DNA from: Balneolaceae bacterium | GTDB taxonomy: Bacteria; Bacteroidota; Rhodothermia; Balneolales; Balneolaceae | DNA: 42,267 nt | Direction: 5' to 3' | NCBI GenBank assembly: GCA_020832285.1 | Contig: JAFIFB010000078.1 | Location: 1-42,267, forward strand | Shown here: positions 3,095-28,726 of the stretch, in pieces | How the letters are laid out: each line of letters starts with the position of its first letter | Numbering within the stretch: position 1 is the stretch's first letter | The notes under the pieces: model-generated | What the model saw: only the letters and a program-made list of their open reading frames with translations | Told to the model about the DNA's origin: nothing | The model's database searches: none | Program-made: the position numbers and the translations under genes

Positions 3095-3231
3095 ACTGTC
3101 GTGTCAACTGTAAAAATGTGAGAGAGTCATCAGACGAGTCAATCCGGGATCATCCCAATTATCGTAATTGGTATATTTTTTGAAGAACTCGTCTGATGAC
3201 TTACCCGACGTTTTATCTTTGAGATAACACT
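3095..3231. repeat. Dispersed palindromic element, copy 1
   Basis: Inner inverted repeats GTCATCAGACGAGT (3126-3139) and ACTCGTCTGATGAC (3187-3200) sit inside weaker outer inverted ends of the type TGTC.TGTCAA...TTGA.ATAACA. The central part reads AATCCGGGATCATCCCAATT. The element is flanked on both sides by CTAC (3094-3097 region and just after the right end), which could be a 4-base target duplication. Four more copies occur in the window. There is no coding capacity, so it resembles a MITE or a large REP. Confidence 0.8.
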
Positions 3232-8240: not shown

Positions 8241-9935
8241 TCAGTCAGATATCCGTTCAAACAACAGATCCCAAACCCTGCCGCTGGATGCCCTGAATCC
8301 GGTTATCGAACCGCTCTCTTCTTCAAACGTAATCCGGTTAATGTGCCAGGCATCTCCCCTGAAGAGATTTTCGGAAACGGGTGTCAGGTTGATGTCTCCT
8401 GTTCGAAGATGACGGGCAATGAGTTTACCCTCTTCCAGTACAACCGAATAGGTCGTTTGCAGCTCTTCGCTAAAATAGTAACCTGTAAACTTTTCCAACT
8501 CCTCTTCCCTGTAATCTACGGGCATTTCACGGACAAATTCAGCAGGTGCCTCTGATGGTTGAACCTCCGCTCTCATCTGTCCCTCATGATTGGTAAAACG
8601 AACAGTGACCTGAGTTCCGGGCAGATGGAACAGCTCTTTTTCAACCGGAATCAGCGGTACACTCAGATTTCCGGTGGAATAGAGCAAAATTCCATCTCTG
8701 ATGATAAAATTTCTTGTTACAGCATTATGATGATTCACATAATGCCCTTCGAACTGTTTCAGATGATCGGGATCAAATGTCTGATAATCTTTTTCATTAT
8801 AAAGAGGCTCCGGGCCTGATGAATCGACATGATCGTCCAGGTATATATCGGCAATCTGCATGGCGTAGCGCGCCGGATTGAACGAAGCGTAATTACTAAA
8901 GACAATCACGGCAAAATCGTGATCGGGAAATCGTCCCATAAATGTGCGATACCCTGCATCTGAACCTCCATGCTGAATTCGATTCAGCCCTTTGTGTTCA
9001 TCCACAAACTGACCAAGTGCACCGCCGAAAGTATCTCCGTTATTGAGCGTTGCTTTCTCGTTCATCGCTTCAACAAGGGATGTTTTTTCAGAATCCGGCC
9101 GGTTCATGAAAATTGCCCAGCGGCTCAGGTCTTCAACTCTGGTGAACAGACTGGTTGCCCCGGCGTTAGCGTAGCTGAGAACCCGCTTTTTGTAGCTATT
9201 GTTACTACGGTCAGAGTAGTAGGAATAGGCGCGGTTTGGTACAATTTTTTCATGATCATCATAAAAGAAAGTATTCTCCATTCCCAGAGGCTCAAAAATA
9301 TTTTTAATCGCAAACTCATTAAACGACATACCTGACACCCTTGCGGCGACCTCTCCCAGTAGTGTAAAGCCGGTGTTACTGTAAAGGTATTGTTCACCCG
9401 GCAGAAAATTGAGTTCCTGCTGACGGCCGGTGTATCTGAGAATATGCTCTTTGGTGATCACATCATCCAGACGCCACCCGGCCATGCCAAGCAGATTCCA
9501 CTGGTCGCGCATGCCGCTTGTGTGATTGGCAAGATGGCGCAGTGTGATCGTATGGCCAAAATCGGGCACTTCGGGAATATAATCGCGAATATCATCATCA
9601 ATAGAGAGTTTGCCCTGCTGTTCCAGTAATAAAATTGCATATACCGTAAACTGCTTGGAGATGGAGGCGATATGATAAATAGTCTCAGATGTATTTGGAA
9701 TATTATATTCGAGATTTGCCTGGCCGAATCCATTCGAGTAAACCATGCGGCCGTCATACACAACTGCAACCGATCCACCTGGCTTTTCACCGTTGTCCCA
9801 CTGCCTGAAAAGTGCATCCACTTTTTCCGCCTTTTCACGAAGCTCCGCTTCTTTCTTTTGTTCAGGAGATGAGTGGCCCAAAACGATTAAACAGGCCAAA
9901 AGTACCGGGATAACAAGAAGAATATTTCTTTTCAT
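8241..9935 (-). CDS. Serine hydrolase, beta-lactamase class C/penicillin-binding-protein family
   Basis: The product has 564 residues and an N-terminal signal segment (about 4-22). The beta-lactamase fold covers about 40-370, with the catalytic SISK tetrad at 91-94 (HIASISKQFT), the YSN motif at 185-187 (YLYSNTGF) and a C-terminal HGG triad within RIQHGGSDAGYRT. About 190 residues follow in two small beta-rich blocks (FEGHYVN... and FTGYYFSEELQ...), as in many Bacteroidota members of PF00144. Such proteins are secreted or periplasmic esterases or D-amino-peptidases of mostly unknown substrate. True beta-lactamase activity is possible but less likely given the C-terminal extension. It stands alone, convergent to the TRAP operon. 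Confidence 0.85.
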   Translation of the reverse strand: MKRNILLVIPVLLACLIVLGHSSPEQKKEAELREKAEKVDALFRQWDNGEKPGGSVAVVYDGRMVYSNGFGQANLEYNIPNTSETIYHIASISKQFTVYAILLLEQQGKLSIDDDIRDYIPEVPDFGHTITLRHLANHTSGMRDQWNLLGMAGWRLDDVITKEHILRYTGRQQELNFLPGEQYLYSNTGFTLLGEVAARVSGMSFNEFAIKNIFEPLGMENTFFYDDHEKIVPNRAYSYYSDRSNNSYKKRVLSYANAGATSLFTRVEDLSRWAIFMNRPDSEKTSLVEAMNEKATLNNGDTFGGALGQFVDEHKGLNRIQHGGSDAGYRTFMGRFPDHDFAVIVFSNYASFNPARYAMQIADIYLDDHVDSSGPEPLYNEKDYQTFDPDHLKQFEGHYVNHHNAVTRNFIIRDGILLYSTGNLSVPLIPVEKELFHLPGTQVTVRFTNHEGQMRAEVQPSEAPAEFVREMPVDYREEELEKFTGYYFSEELQTTYSVVLEEGKLIARHLRTGDINLTPVSENLFRGDAWHINRITFEEESGSITGFRASSGRVWDLLFERISD

Positions 9936-10043
9936 AACAAGAAAACTTGAAGCATCGGAGAGTAATTAAATATAGAATATTTTTCAATTCACACAACTGT
10001 AACCGGAGAAAAATCCGGGATCCTTGCTGTCGCGGGCATCTGC

Positions 10044-10215
10044 CCTGAAATGCCTCAAAGCCAACCAAGCTCTCAATCCACAACTCTTGCAGGAACTCCG
10101 CTCCGCTTCGTACTCTGCCAGGTTGTTTAAGTAGCGACCTGGCAGAGTGCCCAGTGTTTTTCCGGGATCCTGCCCCTTGGGTTCGCTATGCGGCAAGAGT
10201 CGCGGGGGATCTGGC
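10044..10215. repeat. 172-base repeat unit A
   Basis: It runs from CTGAAATGCCTCAAAGCC to the next cognate boundary at about 10216. Inside is a perfect hairpin: CTCTGCCAGG (10113-10122) pairs with CCTGGCAGAG (10138-10147) around a 15-base loop. It is closely similar to 10606-10777. A related, decayed block occurs at 16376-16455. Confidence 0.8.
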
Positions 10216-10220
10216 ATGAA

Positions 10221-10347
10221 ACGCCTCTATGATATTCGATTCTTGAGATGTAACGACGTAACGATTTTCGATCTGATGGCATTAAAATCGCTACGTCGAA
10301 TATCGAATATCTCATAAATCATTCAATCATAACGACATCTTGGCTCC
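10221..10347. repeat. 127-base palindromic repeat, copy 1
   Basis: It matches 16235-16361 along its whole length with the same spacing. The core has ACGTAACGATTTTCG and AAAATCGCTACG arms, with outer GATATTCGA/TCGAATATC symmetry. It ends at CATAACGACATCTTGGCTCC, matched by a near-identical end in copy 2. Non-coding. Confidence 0.8.
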
Positions 10348-10410
10348 ATAAATAAATCCCATTTTAGGATCTAACAGAACCATTGTAGGAAAAAATATGG
10401 TTTTTGTTCA

Positions 10411-10464
10411 GCGACCTGGCTGTGGCCGGTACATTTCCGGGCTCTTGGCATAGTCGCGAGGCAC
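10411..10464. repeat. Partial 172-base repeat unit
   Basis: The block AGCGACCTGGCTGTGG...TTTCCGGGCTCTTGGC...GTCGCGAGGCACTAC matches the right half of the 172-base units. It is interrupted at its right boundary by the palindromic element at 10465-10602; the next unit resumes directly after that element. Confidence 0.65.
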
Positions 10465-10602
10465 TACTGTTATGTCAAACATAAAATGTCGGGTAAGTCA
10501 TCTGACGAGTTTTTTAAAATATACTCCAATAGAAAAGATTGTGAAGATCCCGGATCGACTCGTCTGATGACTCTCTCACATTTTTACAATTGACACGACA
10601 TT
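10465..10602. repeat. Dispersed palindromic element, copy 2 (inverted orientation)
   Basis: Inner arms are GTCATCTGACGAGT (10497-10510) and ACTCGTCTGATGAC (10558-10571). Outer ends TGTTATGTCAA and TTGACACGACA are inverted to each other. Orientation is opposite to copies 1, 4 and 5. It splits a 172-base repeat array at a unit boundary, which gives a before/after picture of insertion. Confidence 0.85.
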
Positions 10603-10605
10603 ACT

Positions 10606-10777
10606 CTGAAATGCCTGAAAGCCAACCAAGCACTCAATCCACAACTCTTGCAGGAACTCCGCTTTGCTACGTACTCTGCCAGGTTGTTTAAGAAGCGACC
10701 TGGCAGAGTGCCCGGTGCTTTTCCGGGCTCCTGTCCCGTGTGGAATCGCTATGCGGCAAGAGTCGCGGGCACTACCG
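10606..10777. repeat. 172-base repeat unit B
   Basis: It is closely similar to 10044-10215 and keeps the same hairpin: CTCTGCCAGG (10674-10683) with CCTGGCAGAG (10699-10708), again with a 15-base loop. A third, decayed unit follows at about 10778-10880 (ATGCCTTAAAGTCAATTATTC ... TTGCCAGGTTGTTTGG). Confidence 0.8.
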
Positions 10778-10930
10778 TGATATGCCTTAAAGTCAATTAT
10801 TCCACAGTTCGCAACGCTGACAGATCCAGTGGGTGCCCCGAGGGGTCGGCACGCCGCAGTCGCTTGCCAGGTTGTTTGGATCGAACCACTAAACACATAC
10901 AGGGTTCAAACTTGGAGGTTTCGTTAAGCT

Positions 10931-11434
10931 TCATTTCCTGATTTGACTCATTGAGCGCAGCCACCCGGAAACTTCCGGACTTCCTTCAGCCGGAGACCAG
11001 GAAGCGAAGGCTTTGTCTGTCTGTGCATTATAGGGGCCTTTTTTAGCTTCAAACAGAATAGTGTCTGGTTTCAGTACGAGAAAGGAGTGCCACACGTTCG
11101 GCTCAATATCCACCAATCCCGGAACCGGTACAGCGGACAAATCGGATACGGTTTTCACTTCTCCCTTATCATCATGCGTAAAAAAACGAATTGACCCTCT
11201 CAGAACCACGATTGATTCGGTTGCGTGTGGCACCGGATGGTAGTGTGGACGCACGTAGGTACCCGGTTGCAAAAAATTAAGCATTCTCTGCACTTCCGCT
11301 TCCTGGGAACGGTGCAGAGGCAAAATCATACGCAGACGTTCACTTTCTCTTGATGCCTTTAGTCCATTTTCGATCAGCTCATCTGTTAGCTCAAACAGAT
11401 CGCCAGATATATTTTCGAATGCAAGTTTAGTCAT
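10931..11434 (-). CDS. WbuC-family cupin-fold metalloprotein
   Basis: The product has 167 residues. The pattern QRMLNFLQPGTYVRPHYHPVP (about 49-69), then ESIVVLRGSIRFF, a WHSFLVLKPDTILFEAKKGPY block and the terminal FASWSPAEG are those of the WbuC-type cupins found beside O-antigen genes in other bacteria. The metal-binding residues are likely His64, His66, His70 and the later WH histidine (inference from cupin motif 1 and 2 spacing). Substrate unknown. It starts 23 bases after the M20 amidohydrolase stop, so the two are probably co-transcribed; no sugar-nucleotide genes are near. Confidence 0.82.
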   Translation of the reverse strand: MTKLAFENISGDLFELTDELIENGLKASRESERLRMILPLHRSQEAEVQRMLNFLQPGTYVRPHYHPVPHATESIVVLRGSIRFFTHDDKGEVKTVSDLSAVPVPGLVDIEPNVWHSFLVLKPDTILFEAKKGPYNAQTDKAFASWSPAEGSPEVSGWLRSMSQIRK

Positions 11435-11457
11435 TATTAATTTTTTACGGAAACAGG

Positions 11458-12642
11458 TCAGCCCAGTGCCAGCCCGGCCATAAGTGCTGAACCGGTCAGA
11501 AAAGCGCGCTCATCCACATTATATCGCGGATGGTGCCAGCTCCACTGGGAATCTGTCTCTTCACTTCCGCTTCCCAGAAAGAAAAACGCTCCCGGAAACT
11601 CCTGCTGGTAAAAGGAGAAATCTTCACCGGCCATCAGCGGCCTTTCCATTTCAATCACGTTTTCTTCACCCAGAACAAGACGGGCTGCTTTCTGCAGTTT
11701 CTGTGTACTTTCCTCATTATTCACAACTGCCGGGTAACCTTCACTGAAATAGAATGTATAACTTCCGCCGTTACCCTCTGTAATACTTTTTACGATCGCT
11801 TCCATCCGGTCTCTGATAAACCGGGCTGTATCCATTGAAAAAGCACGCACAGTGCCCTGCATCACTGCTTTACCCGGAATCACATTAAAAGCCGAGCCCG
11901 CTTCAATTTTCCCGACCGTAATGACAGCTGGTTCCGTGGGATCAATCGACCGGCTGATAATGGTTTGAAACTGGTTGATTACCTGTGCTGCCAGAACAAT
12001 CGGGTCTACAGCCGTGTGCGGAGCTGCCGCATGGCCCCCTTTCCCAATCACTTCCACACCAAACTCCATCGTGCAGGCCATAAATGGGCCCGGTTTTACA
12101 GCGATCTGTCCCGGTTTATAGTTTGGGTTGGTGTGAAGCCCGAAAATCTCTTTTACTCCATGTTTTTGTAATACACCGCTTTCGGTCATCACACGGCCGC
12201 CACCTGGTAATTTCTCTTCAGCCGGCTGAAATACCAGCACCACTTTTCCATCAAGGTGTTCACGCAGATCGGACAAAATTCTTGCCGTTCCAAGCAAATT
12301 TGCGGTGTGAGCGTCATGGCCGCAGCAGTGAGCAGCACCGGGACGTTCGGAAAGAAACTCTTTTTTGACATCTCCCTCTTCATCCATCGGAAGGGCATCG
12401 ATATCGGCACGAAGTGCAATGGCCCGCCCGGAAGGTTTTCCTTCAATAATGCCCACACACCCGGTCTCCAGTGGCTTTTCGGTTTTAATTCCGATTTTTT
12501 TCAATTCATGCAGTATGTACTCTGTCGTATCAAACTCTTTGAAGCTGACTTCGGGATTTTTATGAAGATGTCTTCGGGTCTGAACCATATATTCAAAATA
12601 TGTTTCTGCTTTTTCCCGGATTGCGCTTGCTAAATCAGCCAT
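11458..12642 (-). CDS. M20-family amidohydrolase (N-acyl amino acid hydrolase type)
   Basis: The product has 394 residues, the standard length. Motifs in order are ALRADIDALPMDEE (about 96-109), GAAHCCGHDAHTANLLG with metal/activation Cys and His residues (about 126-142), VLVFQPAEE carrying the catalytic Glu pair (about 159-167), FGLHTNP (about 191-197) and MAGEDFSFYQQEFPGAFFFLG. These define the M20D amidohydrolases (hippurate, IAA-amino acid, N-acetyl amino acid deacylases). It has no signal peptide and so acts in the cytoplasm. First gene of a two-gene unit with the cupin, divergent from the alcohol dehydrogenase gene. Confidence 0.93.
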   Translation of the reverse strand: MADLASAIREKAETYFEYMVQTRRHLHKNPEVSFKEFDTTEYILHELKKIGIKTEKPLETGCVGIIEGKPSGRAIALRADIDALPMDEEGDVKKEFLSERPGAAHCCGHDAHTANLLGTARILSDLREHLDGKVVLVFQPAEEKLPGGGRVMTESGVLQKHGVKEIFGLHTNPNYKPGQIAVKPGPFMACTMEFGVEVIGKGGHAAAPHTAVDPIVLAAQVINQFQTIISRSIDPTEPAVITVGKIEAGSAFNVIPGKAVMQGTVRAFSMDTARFIRDRMEAIVKSITEGNGGSYTFYFSEGYPAVVNNEESTQKLQKAARLVLGEENVIEMERPLMAGEDFSFYQQEFPGAFFFLGSGSEETDSQWSWHHPRYNVDERAFLTGSALMAGLALG

Positions 12643-12755
12643 ATGTGAATTTCTTCTTTGTTAAATCTGTTAAAATATGAGTGAAGGAACGATGAAACAA
12701 CGATCTTTCTGTAAGTGCTGGTCACCTAACCAATGATAATCAAATTTACATAATT

Positions 12756-13976
12756 ATGAACTCATTTGAAGTCCACATTCCAACACGAATTTATTTCGGA
12801 GAAGAAAAGGCCGATGATTTTTTTGAACAGCTTCGTTCTTACGGCTCACACGCAATGCTGGTAATCGGAGGAGGCAGCGTTCAAAAGCTTGGCTATCTGG
12901 ATGAAGTAATAGCACATCTTGAAAAAAGAGGATTAGAATATACGCTGTTTGAAGGGATTGAGCCAAATCCCCACGCAGCCACAATCGATAAAGCTGCGGC
13001 TCTTGGTAAAGAAAAAGATGTCGACTTTCTGCTTGCGTTTGGCGGTGGTTCTGTAATGGATGCATCCAAGTCGATTGCCGGGCTGATACACGACAATGAA
13101 ACAGAAATCTGGCCTTTCGTTCTGGGTGAACCCAGATATAATACCATGAAAGGTGCTCTGCCGGTAACCACCATTCCCACAACGGCGGCAACGGCTTCAG
13201 AAGTAACTGCCCATGCTGTCATCTCCAACCCCGATGTTAAAGGAAAATCACCGGTCAGCTATCCTTTTTTCAAACCATCGGCTTCCTGGTTAAACCCCGC
13301 CTACCACACTTCACTCCCGGCAGAAACCACGCGTGATGGTGCGTCTGACATTCTGAGCCATGTGTTTGAAAACTATGTACTCGGAGGAAATGATTCTCCA
13401 CCGGCCGACCGCTATAGCGAAGGGGTGATGCAAACAGTGATCGAAACTTTACCGAAAGTGCTCGATGATCCTGAAAATGAATCCCTCCGCGGACAAATGC
13501 TCTGGTCTTCCACACTGGCGCTGAACACCATTCAGGTTGCCGGCCGTAAACCCGAACCTTTCATTCTCCACAATCTGGAGCACTCATTAAGCGGATACAG
13601 TCCCCGGCTTGCACACGGGCGCGGCCTTGCTATTCTCTATCCTGCTTACTTCAAATGGCTGATGGAAAATGATCGTGTGGTTGACAGGCTTGCCCTAATG
13701 GGTGAAAAGCTTTTTGGCATTAAAACGGATGATGAATATGAGGGAGCCGCTGAATTTATCGCAATATTTGAAGAGTGGCTGAATGATAACGGACTTTATC
13801 ACCGCCTTTCTGATGTGGACATTCCTCCCAAGGCTTTTCATGAAATTGCCAGTTATACCATAAGGGTTTATGGTGGTGGTAATGATATGAATGCAGCCGG
13901 ACCCTTAGATAAACAAGGAATTGTGGAAATTTTTGAAAAAACAGAAGAGCAGGTTTACGAAAAAGCAGAACCTTAA
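12756..13976 (+). CDS. Iron-containing alcohol dehydrogenase (butanol dehydrogenase/YqhD-like)
   Basis: The product has 406 residues and is slightly longer than YqhD. The nucleotide site GGGSVMDASK lies at about 97-106. Likely iron ligands are Asp198 and His202 (DGASDILSH), His272 (FILHNLEHSLSGY) and His287 (RLAHGRG), all present, so the protein looks active. It reduces aldehydes or oxidises alcohols with NAD(P)H in the cytoplasm. The N-terminal FEVHIPTRIYFGEE is the BDH-type start. It is divergent from the M20 gene across 113 bases and followed by a hairpin at 14010-14049. Confidence 0.92.
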   Translation: MNSFEVHIPTRIYFGEEKADDFFEQLRSYGSHAMLVIGGGSVQKLGYLDEVIAHLEKRGLEYTLFEGIEPNPHAATIDKAAALGKEKDVDFLLAFGGGSVMDASKSIAGLIHDNETEIWPFVLGEPRYNTMKGALPVTTIPTTAATASEVTAHAVISNPDVKGKSPVSYPFFKPSASWLNPAYHTSLPAETTRDGASDILSHVFENYVLGGNDSPPADRYSEGVMQTVIETLPKVLDDPENESLRGQMLWSSTLALNTIQVAGRKPEPFILHNLEHSLSGYSPRLAHGRGLAILYPAYFKWLMENDRVVDRLALMGEKLFGIKTDDEYEGAAEFIAIFEEWLNDNGLYHRLSDVDIPPKAFHEIASYTIRVYGGGNDMNAAGPLDKQGIVEIFEKTEEQVYEKAEP

Positions 13977-14009
13977 ACCTCAATGATCTATGAGTGCTCT
14001 GTATTGTCC

Positions 14010-14049
14010 AAAGGGCAGGCTAAAATGTACAACGGGCAGCCTGCCCTTT
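14010..14049. terminator. Hairpin after the alcohol dehydrogenase gene
   Basis: A perfect 12-base stem, AAAGGGCAGGCT (14010-14021) with AGCCTGCCCTTT (14038-14049), has a 16-base loop and lies 34 bases past the stop. There is only a short T stretch in the stem end, so termination is likely but the site may be a REP-like palindrome instead. Confidence 0.6.
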
Positions 14050-16207: not shown

Positions 16208-16234
16208 AGAATTCAGTACTTACATTGTTTTCAA

Positions 16235-16361
16235 ACGTCTCTTTGATATCCGATTTTTGAGATTTAACGACGTAACGATATTCGATCTGATGGGCATAAA
16301 ATCGCTACATCGAATATCGAAAATCTCATAAATCTTTCAATCATAACGATATATTGGCTCC
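16235..16361. repeat. 127-base palindromic repeat, copy 2
   Basis: It is similar to 10221-10347 end to end with no visible length difference. Both copies lie beside material of the 172-base unit, so the two form a repeated composite. Confidence 0.8.
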
Positions 16362-25324: not shown

Positions 25325-25459
25325 TGCCGTGCCATTTGTAAAAAGAGTAAGATAGTCATCTGACGAGTCTATCCGGGATGATTCCTATCATCTTAACTGT
25401 TTCTTTTTTCGAAAAACTCGTCTGATGACTTACCCTTCGTTTTATTATAGACGTAACTC
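25322..25459. repeat. Dispersed palindromic element, copy 3
   Basis: Inner arms GTCATCTGACGAGT (25355-25368) and ACTCGTCTGATGAC (25416-25429) surround CTATCCGGGATGATTCC. Outer ends are more diverged than in the other copies. The left end coincides with the stop codon of the MauE/DoxX-like gene. Confidence 0.78.
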
Positions 25460-26664: not shown

Positions 26665-26830
26665 TTATTTTTCAGGCCACAAAACACTTAACGGTCCAGA
26701 ACCCGTTAAAGAGTGCACCTGATTGTGAATGAAGAAGGTATATTGACCCTTATCCTCTGCCTTTTCTAACTTTTTGCTGAACTGTCAAAAACGGTTATCA
26801 AGATTGAAAGAATTTTATCCCGCTAGAATC

Positions 26831-26963
26831 TTGTCATCTGTAAAAGTGTGAAAGAGTCACCAGACGAGTCGATCCGGGATCATCCCAATTATCTTCACTG
26901 GTTAATTTTTTGAAAAACTCGTCAGATGACTTACCCGACATTTTATCTTTGACATAACACTAA
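26831..26963. repeat. Dispersed palindromic element, copy 4
   Basis: Inner arms GTCACCAGACGAGT (26856-26869) and ACTCGTCAGATGAC (26917-26930) surround CGATCCGGGATCATCCCAAT. Same orientation as copies 1 and 5 and very similar to copy 5 through the middle. Confidence 0.82.
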
Positions 26964-28178: not shown

Positions 28179-28726
28179 ACTTTTCGCTTTTCATAAGGGA
28201 ACGTTGTCCATTTTCGTTTCGAATATAAATTGAGAGAATCTTAATTCAACAAATTGACACTCATATTTAATATTTTCTGTTATTACCGGGTGGAACTTTA
28301 ATTCCATCCCAAACCACAAAAAATTAATCAATATGTATTGAATAAGCCGTTATTTTGTGACAAAAATAACTAATGAGTGACGACCAACAACACATTGTTA
28401 TCGTAACTACCCGGGTGGGTGGTAGCGATTACCATCATCAAAAAAAGAAACAGAAATTTCCCGATGATGAATCTACCGGACTACTATATTTTCCTTGCTT
28501 CCAGCACTCTGTTTGGCCTTCCCAGTTGCCATTAATTGGCATACAAATATTTCCAAAACCAGGCTTTTTTGATGTTAAAAGTACCATGTCACTTGTAGAA
28601 GTGCAGGAGAGTCATCAGACGAGTCGATCCGGGATCATCCCAATTATCTTCAATGGTTTATTTTTCGAAAAACTCGTCAGATGACTTACCCGTTGTTTTA
28701 TCTTTGACATAGCAAATGGGCCAAAA
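28179..28726. other. Intergenic region between convergent genes
   Basis: It contains copy 5 of the dispersed palindromic element (28585-28715). An ATG-initiated frame at 28373 runs into the element and has no recognised family, so it is not called. The remainder shows nothing I recognise. Confidence 0.5.
28585..28715. repeat. Dispersed palindromic element, copy 5
   Basis: Inner arms are GTCATCAGACGAGT (28611-28624) and ACTCGTCAGATGAC (28672-28685). The middle CGATCCGGGATCATCCCAAT equals copy 4. The right end is 11 bases from the stop of the AAA ATPase gene on the minus strand, so it may act as its transcription end. Confidence 0.83.

Follow-up and report, generated by a model that had tools for sequence, protein, structure and literature searches.

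The element at the center of this work is very probably a MITE that is mobilized in trans by an IS630-family transposase and that duplicates four bases, NTAN, at its target. It lies in the window, the 42,267-nucleotide stretch of DNA analyzed here, which is one contig (C35) of a 5.33-Mb Balneolaceae genome in 130 contigs, and it belongs to a multicopy, intergenically placed family with ends shared with IS630, with empty sites and with a 4-bp flank duplication. According to the proposed mechanism, the element, which has no transposase of its own, would have its ends (TGTYRTGTCAANNNTAAA) recognized by an IS630-family enzyme from elsewhere in the cell. This transposase would join the element to a TA-centered target so that a four-base NTAN stretch is duplicated, and the target in the present case would be CTAC within an intergenic modular repeat. 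The core and its borders are as follows.

10468-10600, plus strand: MITE core, 133 bp, TGT...ACA, with TGTTATGTCAAAC...TTGACACGACA at the ends
10464-10467, plus strand: left target copy, CTAC
10601-10604, plus strand: right target copy, TTAC, one base unlike the left
10468-10493, plus strand: left terminal repeat, like the C-terminal-side end of IS630 in the same genome
10575-10600, minus strand: right terminal repeat, an imperfect inverted copy of the left

A palindromic element nested in an older repeat array had been proposed by a reading made from the sequence alone, and this element is real: it is strongly repeated, and 10460-10610 folded as single-stranded DNA beats 200 of 200 shuffles (z -3.94). 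The borders given by the sequence-only reading, 10465-10602, were a few bases off the exact core. With a length of 133 bp, imperfect inverted ends and no transposase gene inside, the element has the features of a MITE, and like bacterial MITEs it is both multicopy and mobile, with filled and empty sites. The window holds five copies; the four besides the one at 10468-10600 lie on the minus strand and have 75-85% identity.

3097-3229, minus strand: further copy, flanks GTAG/GTAG in element orientation
26827-26959, minus strand: further, older copy; the orthologous place in the relative G017 is also filled
28582-28714, minus strand: further, diverged copy (partial match, from which the borders are extrapolated)
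25325-25458, minus strand: further, diverged copy

A search of the whole genome returned at least 40 element matches (148 first-look candidates), and the loci examined comprise 57 element places with different flanks, of which 49 are full length. Most of the copies listed share 97-100% identity with a 134-bp consensus, the commonest form. The window copy has 89% identity to this consensus and, among the matches listed, is nearer to copies in C60 (98%) and C43 (93%). Seven 20-kb stretches of the genome chosen regardless of copies contained five element matches, of which two reach at least 92%. Contig ends in this assembly often consist of an element copy or its IS630 (C25, C26, C29, C31, C36, C73, C101, C110 and C128 are among such contigs); because many contigs begin or end in this way, the copy counts are probably too low.

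The target footprint was read from the 31 full copies that have 30 or more bases on either side. In 19 of the 31 the left and right four bases are identical, where 4.6 are expected, and none of 20,000 shuffles of the right flanks reached 19. Agreement is seen in 27 pairs at position 1 (against 14.4 expected) and in 22 pairs at position 4 (against 13.2, p 0.0002), and four other registers tested showed no excess agreement. When copies with a left CTAG are set aside, 13 of 24 pairs are exact (position 4, p 0.003), and a looser set of 35 copies, 22 of them exact, gives the same picture. As expected for an IS630 MITE, most of the 31 flank pairs have TA at positions 2-3, with exceptions such as CTTG, CTGG, AGCG and CTCC, and it is four bases rather than exactly TA that are duplicated as a rule. 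The base just outside the four leans toward A on the left (20/35) and toward T on the right (19/35), and therefore the preferred target is approximately ACTAGT. A short target duplication had been suspected from flanks read as CTAC/TTAC at the window copy and CTAC/CTAC at the copy at 3097-3229. The second pair was read correctly (GTAG/GTAG in element orientation) and target flanks do repeat across the family, although the window copy itself differs at one base. We regard the 4-bp duplication as firm for the MITEs.

The main competing account keeps the same MITE and posits a classical duplication of TA, the outer two bases belonging to the element ends and only looking duplicated. ISY100, the in-vitro model, duplicates TA, as is classical for IS630 (PMC2170065), and 12 of the 31 MITE flank pairs are indeed inexact, some of them at young copies (TTAT/CTAC, CTAC/CTAT). 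IS630 copies themselves give a mixed record. We examined 22 plasmid IS630 loci with a finder that requires TA on both sides, and 17 of these have CTAG/CTAG (for L171, as the second-best pairing), a target that hides the length of the duplication, so that these loci cannot discriminate between two and four bases. Two loci lie outside CTAG: L261 (TTAG/CTAG) is unequal at position 1, as is a copy in the genome G018 (L159, GTAG/CTAG), which fits duplication of TA only, whereas L262 (GTAG/GTAG) speaks for four bases. The remaining loci have other ends (L254, L255) or no clear end (L268). Duplication of TA only predicts no agreement at the outer bases, and thus the agreement seen in the MITEs, confined as it is to one register and extending to non-palindromic targets (CTAC, TTAG, GTAG and CTAA), argues for four. 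Other short elements with the same ends behave likewise: 18 of 22 agree at each outer position, where 10.0 and 10.5 are expected, in a set that keeps only rows with TA on both sides and includes one composite (L008) and four pairings that overlap within a single nested locus (L215). Inheritance of the target type with the element sub-type was rejected as a source of the agreement, since of eight variable sites tested among 27 copies none is associated with target position 4 (lowest p 0.12); for position 1, three of the eight show a nominal association (p 0.0065 to 0.022), each on two or three copies. We therefore consider duplication of TA alone unlikely.

The link of the MITE to IS630 comes from its terminal repeat, which is found at the ends of IS630 copies too, both in this genome and elsewhere in the genus. 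Of 26 genomes of the genus, 7 contain exact matches to the motif TGTCATGTCAANNNTAAA, 46 in all, and a reversed control pattern has none in the same 26. Five of the 13 matches in the genome of the window lie 118-208 bases from a contig end, and inward of these five is the C-terminus of an IS630 transposase (LNIAEIELNVLGGQCLKRRIDEIEK...ARIKLKQLYPKL). This C-terminal tail matched 193 of 72,556 plasmid records; the best 10 of the 193 show 59-66% identity and are annotated as IS630, including ISPna1 and ISMae29, except for one that is unannotated. A matching end stands behind the stop codon at 10 of 12 loci with such a tail: five in this genome, two in G013 and one each in G018, G014 and G009, with a single-base change in the G014 and G009 ends. 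The exceptions are C22 of the genome of the window and C31 of G009. The MITE ends thus match those of an IS630 of the same genome, as expected of an IS630-derived MITE. Complete IS630 copies with TGTCATGTCAAGTCTAAAG ends were not seen in this genome, where contig-end pieces were the only form found. The copy in G018 (L159) is 1,195 bases long, and its two frames, of 147 and 221 codons, match HTH_32 and DDE_3 above the Pfam cut-offs; the long frame is above the cut-off of NF033545 (IS630), and the short frame is below it. Judging by these shared ends, the IS630 would be the source of the responsible enzyme, acting in trans, and by analogy with ISY100 the chemistry is presumably cut-and-paste. 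The sole PF13358 match in the genome of the window, on C22, differs in its ends (GTATTTCAACAAATTAATT); it is located in CTAG and adjoins an end of the TGTCGTGTCAA type. The IS630 there (L157, approximately 880-2090) looks complete but for a split reading frame, and it is inserted at the CTAG next to the end of an IS630-type element.

We lean toward the broader hypothesis that an ISPna1-like clade of IS630/Tc1-mariner makes a 4-base, TA-centered stagger in place of the typical 2-base TA and has seeded several MITE families in the genus. The nearest named relatives of the 64-aa tail, among the best 10 of 193 plasmid matches, are ISPna1 and ISMae29 (62.9% and 62.5% identity). ISPna1 has the ends TGTCGCGTCATGA and CTAG on both sides; the ends of this pair are unlike TGTCATGTCAA, and a CTAG target cannot reveal whether two or four bases are duplicated. 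ISHsp2 of Halomonas is, like the present IS630, a two-ORF element, and it has a 4-bp duplication (TTAA), unlike other members, which duplicate TA (PMC3606827). It differs from the MITE in being an autonomous IS, and the comparison made here covers its ORFs and duplication. With this precedent, a 4-bp duplication does not exclude an element from the IS630 family. Among pogo elements, duplications of TAA and TAAA are described for Fot and Fot-like elements (PMC7386202). A close parallel among MITEs is RUP of Streptococcus pneumoniae, which is attributed to IS630-Spn1 and resembles the present family in its length (~100 bp), its ~100 copies, its ends like those of an IS630 in the same genome and the TA in its target (PMC2229807, PMC3049150). 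RUP has another end sequence and another host, and excerpts of these two papers report no 4-bp duplication. Given that RUP and ISHsp2 are already published, neither the kind of element nor the 4-bp footprint is new. Excerpts of PMC4853749, PMC3542288 and PMC8944449 contain nothing on duplication by IS630 MITEs. In searches that left subscription journals largely outside, we found no literature on Balneolaceae insertion sequences and none that, by title, concerns such repeats as MITEs in Balneolaeota.

A MITE of a different DDE family with a 4-bp YTAR-type duplication, IS5 or IS701, would account for the footprint if the likeness to IS630 were due to chance. A model exists in MITEPsy1 of Pseudomonas syringae, a 100-nt MITE with a 4-nt duplication of CTAG or YTAA that is ascribed to ISPsy2 of the IS5 family and has ends matching that element, not IS630 (PMC3189936). 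The ends of the present element match IS630 ends in the same genome and do not match an IS of either type, and the loci with PF01609 and PF00665 that were examined as a source have IS borders without the ends of the element. For PF13546 (DDE_5), which we take to be the IS701 domain, a profile search of the genome gave no match. This origin is accordingly very improbable.

The copies lie between genes. Judged by whether a frame of 120 codons crosses the joined site, 30 of 31 are intergenic, and the exception is the window copy, where a 134-codon frame runs across the repeat itself. The copies at L034 and L212 each adjoin a second element of their type, with one CTAG common to the two. On the left, the neighbor of the window copy is a PF00144 serine hydrolase (8241-9935, minus strand), which falls below the cut-offs of all named beta-lactamase models shown; on the right, it is a WbuC-type cupin. 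In L094, a contig of a close relative, the WbuC-type cupin gene (approximately 386-400) is without some 330 bases that are present in the window (11058-11385), which represents either a deletion or an assembly error. We see no reason to assign a host function to the element. A 40-codon frame in the majority form was rejected as a gene: it has no NCBIfam match and, by eye, is lost in copies one base shorter, including the window copy, so that it appears to be a chance frame. A conserved RNA hairpin was likewise rejected, as 16 diverged copies and the consensus show no stem pair changed on both sides, and Rfam gave nothing in 9900-11000 at E<=1.

The window copy interrupts a modular repeat, of which the relevant parts are given below.

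10411-10463, plus strand: left part of the interrupted modular repeat
10605-10769, plus strand: right part of the interrupted modular repeat (unit B of the sequence-only reading)
10044-10215, plus strand: paralogous unit A, with its left junction without the element

We joined 10438-10467 to 10605-10650, keeping one CTAC, as a query for empty sites. Among the loci examined in this genome, 25 distinct sequences align with this query across the junction, some of them with gaps of one or two bases, and two of the 25 are in the window, at the start of unit A and in the stretch after unit B. The earlier observation that the same two ends meet elsewhere with no element between them is thus borne out. 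At the best-fitting empty paralogue outside the window (C70, L069) the sequence is AGTCGCGGGGCACTACCCTGAAATGCC, in which CTAC occurs once at the point of insertion. The junction in unit A reads GGCATCTGCC, not GGCACTAC as had been stated. The element had also been placed exactly at the boundary between two 172-base units; since the paralogues run through the junction, the unit does not end at the insertion point and the element interrupts a longer module. The array itself (10000-10890) is part of a larger, GC-rich modular repeat with short palindromic modules (CCTGGCAGAG / CTCTTGCAGG), and a 172-base query has 46 matches in the genome, many of them to pieces. By eye, one of its modules is similar to the interior of a different element family in G031. 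An AT-rich palindromic repeat is present at 10219-10347 and 16233-16361 (89% identity between the two) and, by eye, lies beside units in L056, L057, L063, L064 and L067.

Insertion after the array had formed, as originally proposed, is supported by these paralogous empty sites and by four orthologous empty sites for sister copies; for the window copy itself, it is the paralogues that support a younger age than that of the array. An orthologous site with the array and without the element was not found for this copy. The L094 contig is 94% identical in nucleotides over 11386-14033 of the window, and the flanking matches in it are 151 bases apart, versus 904 in the window. It has neither array nor element, and thus is not a case of the element without its flanking units.

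The four orthologous sites come from G017, in which the joined flanks of 17 of the 31 usable pairs were searched; the best 40 of 77 first-look candidates were scored, so that a missing match is not proof of absence. Clean empty sites were found for the copies in L014, L036, L026 and L012. At the L014 site CTAC is single in the empty G017 and double where the element is present, and at the other three the bases in G017 are unlike the target. At the L208 site, G017 has ~108 bases of different sequence in place of the element (C415; L225, approximately 1595-1702), palindromic-looking and of the form AACCTGAATTATTC...GAATAATTCAGGTT, which may be a different element that entered the same target. 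The left flank of L024 continues in G017 for 12 bases beyond the junction without the element, and the junction of L011 is spanned without it, but by a flank that matches several places. The copy at 26827-26959 of the window has its site filled in both species. Matches are one-sided for L147 and L010 and of a repeat nature for L038 and L018, and five tested sites are not among the G017 matches listed. Four clean empty sites among 17 suggest that the family moved fairly recently. The simplest reading is movement that postdates the divergence from G017, at least one window copy being older, although loss by precise excision in G017 may also have produced the empty sites.

The same sites weigh against two further accounts. 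A REP-type palindrome moved by a Y1 transposase (IS200/IS605-like, RAYT) would also be palindromic, intergenic and multicopy, but Y1 elements are not known to make a flank duplication, whereas the present family has one, of 4 bp at the clean empty L014 site, and has long terminal inverted repeats that it shares with a DDE-type IS; we give this origin hardly any credence. Equally implausible is an account without transposition, in which the element was an original part of the array or recombination between repeats spread its copies: repeats do form a mosaic in this region and some copies abut other elements, but different copies have unrelated flanking sequences, the flanks carry the duplication, and empty sites occur in paralogues and in G017, the orthologous ones in particular disfavoring it.

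Movement of a MITE by an IS630-family transposase would explain an intergenic region built of repeats as well as many of the contig ends of the assembly. Elements with IS630-type ends insert beside each other and into older repeats at TA-centered sites. Most related IS copies examined reside at CTAG sites, which cannot show the stagger, and the dozens of non-palindromic insertion footprints make the stagger of an IS630-clade transposase readable and testable. If the reading of a 4-base stagger is true, the non-palindromic targets of these MITEs would record a footprint that the usual CTAG hides.
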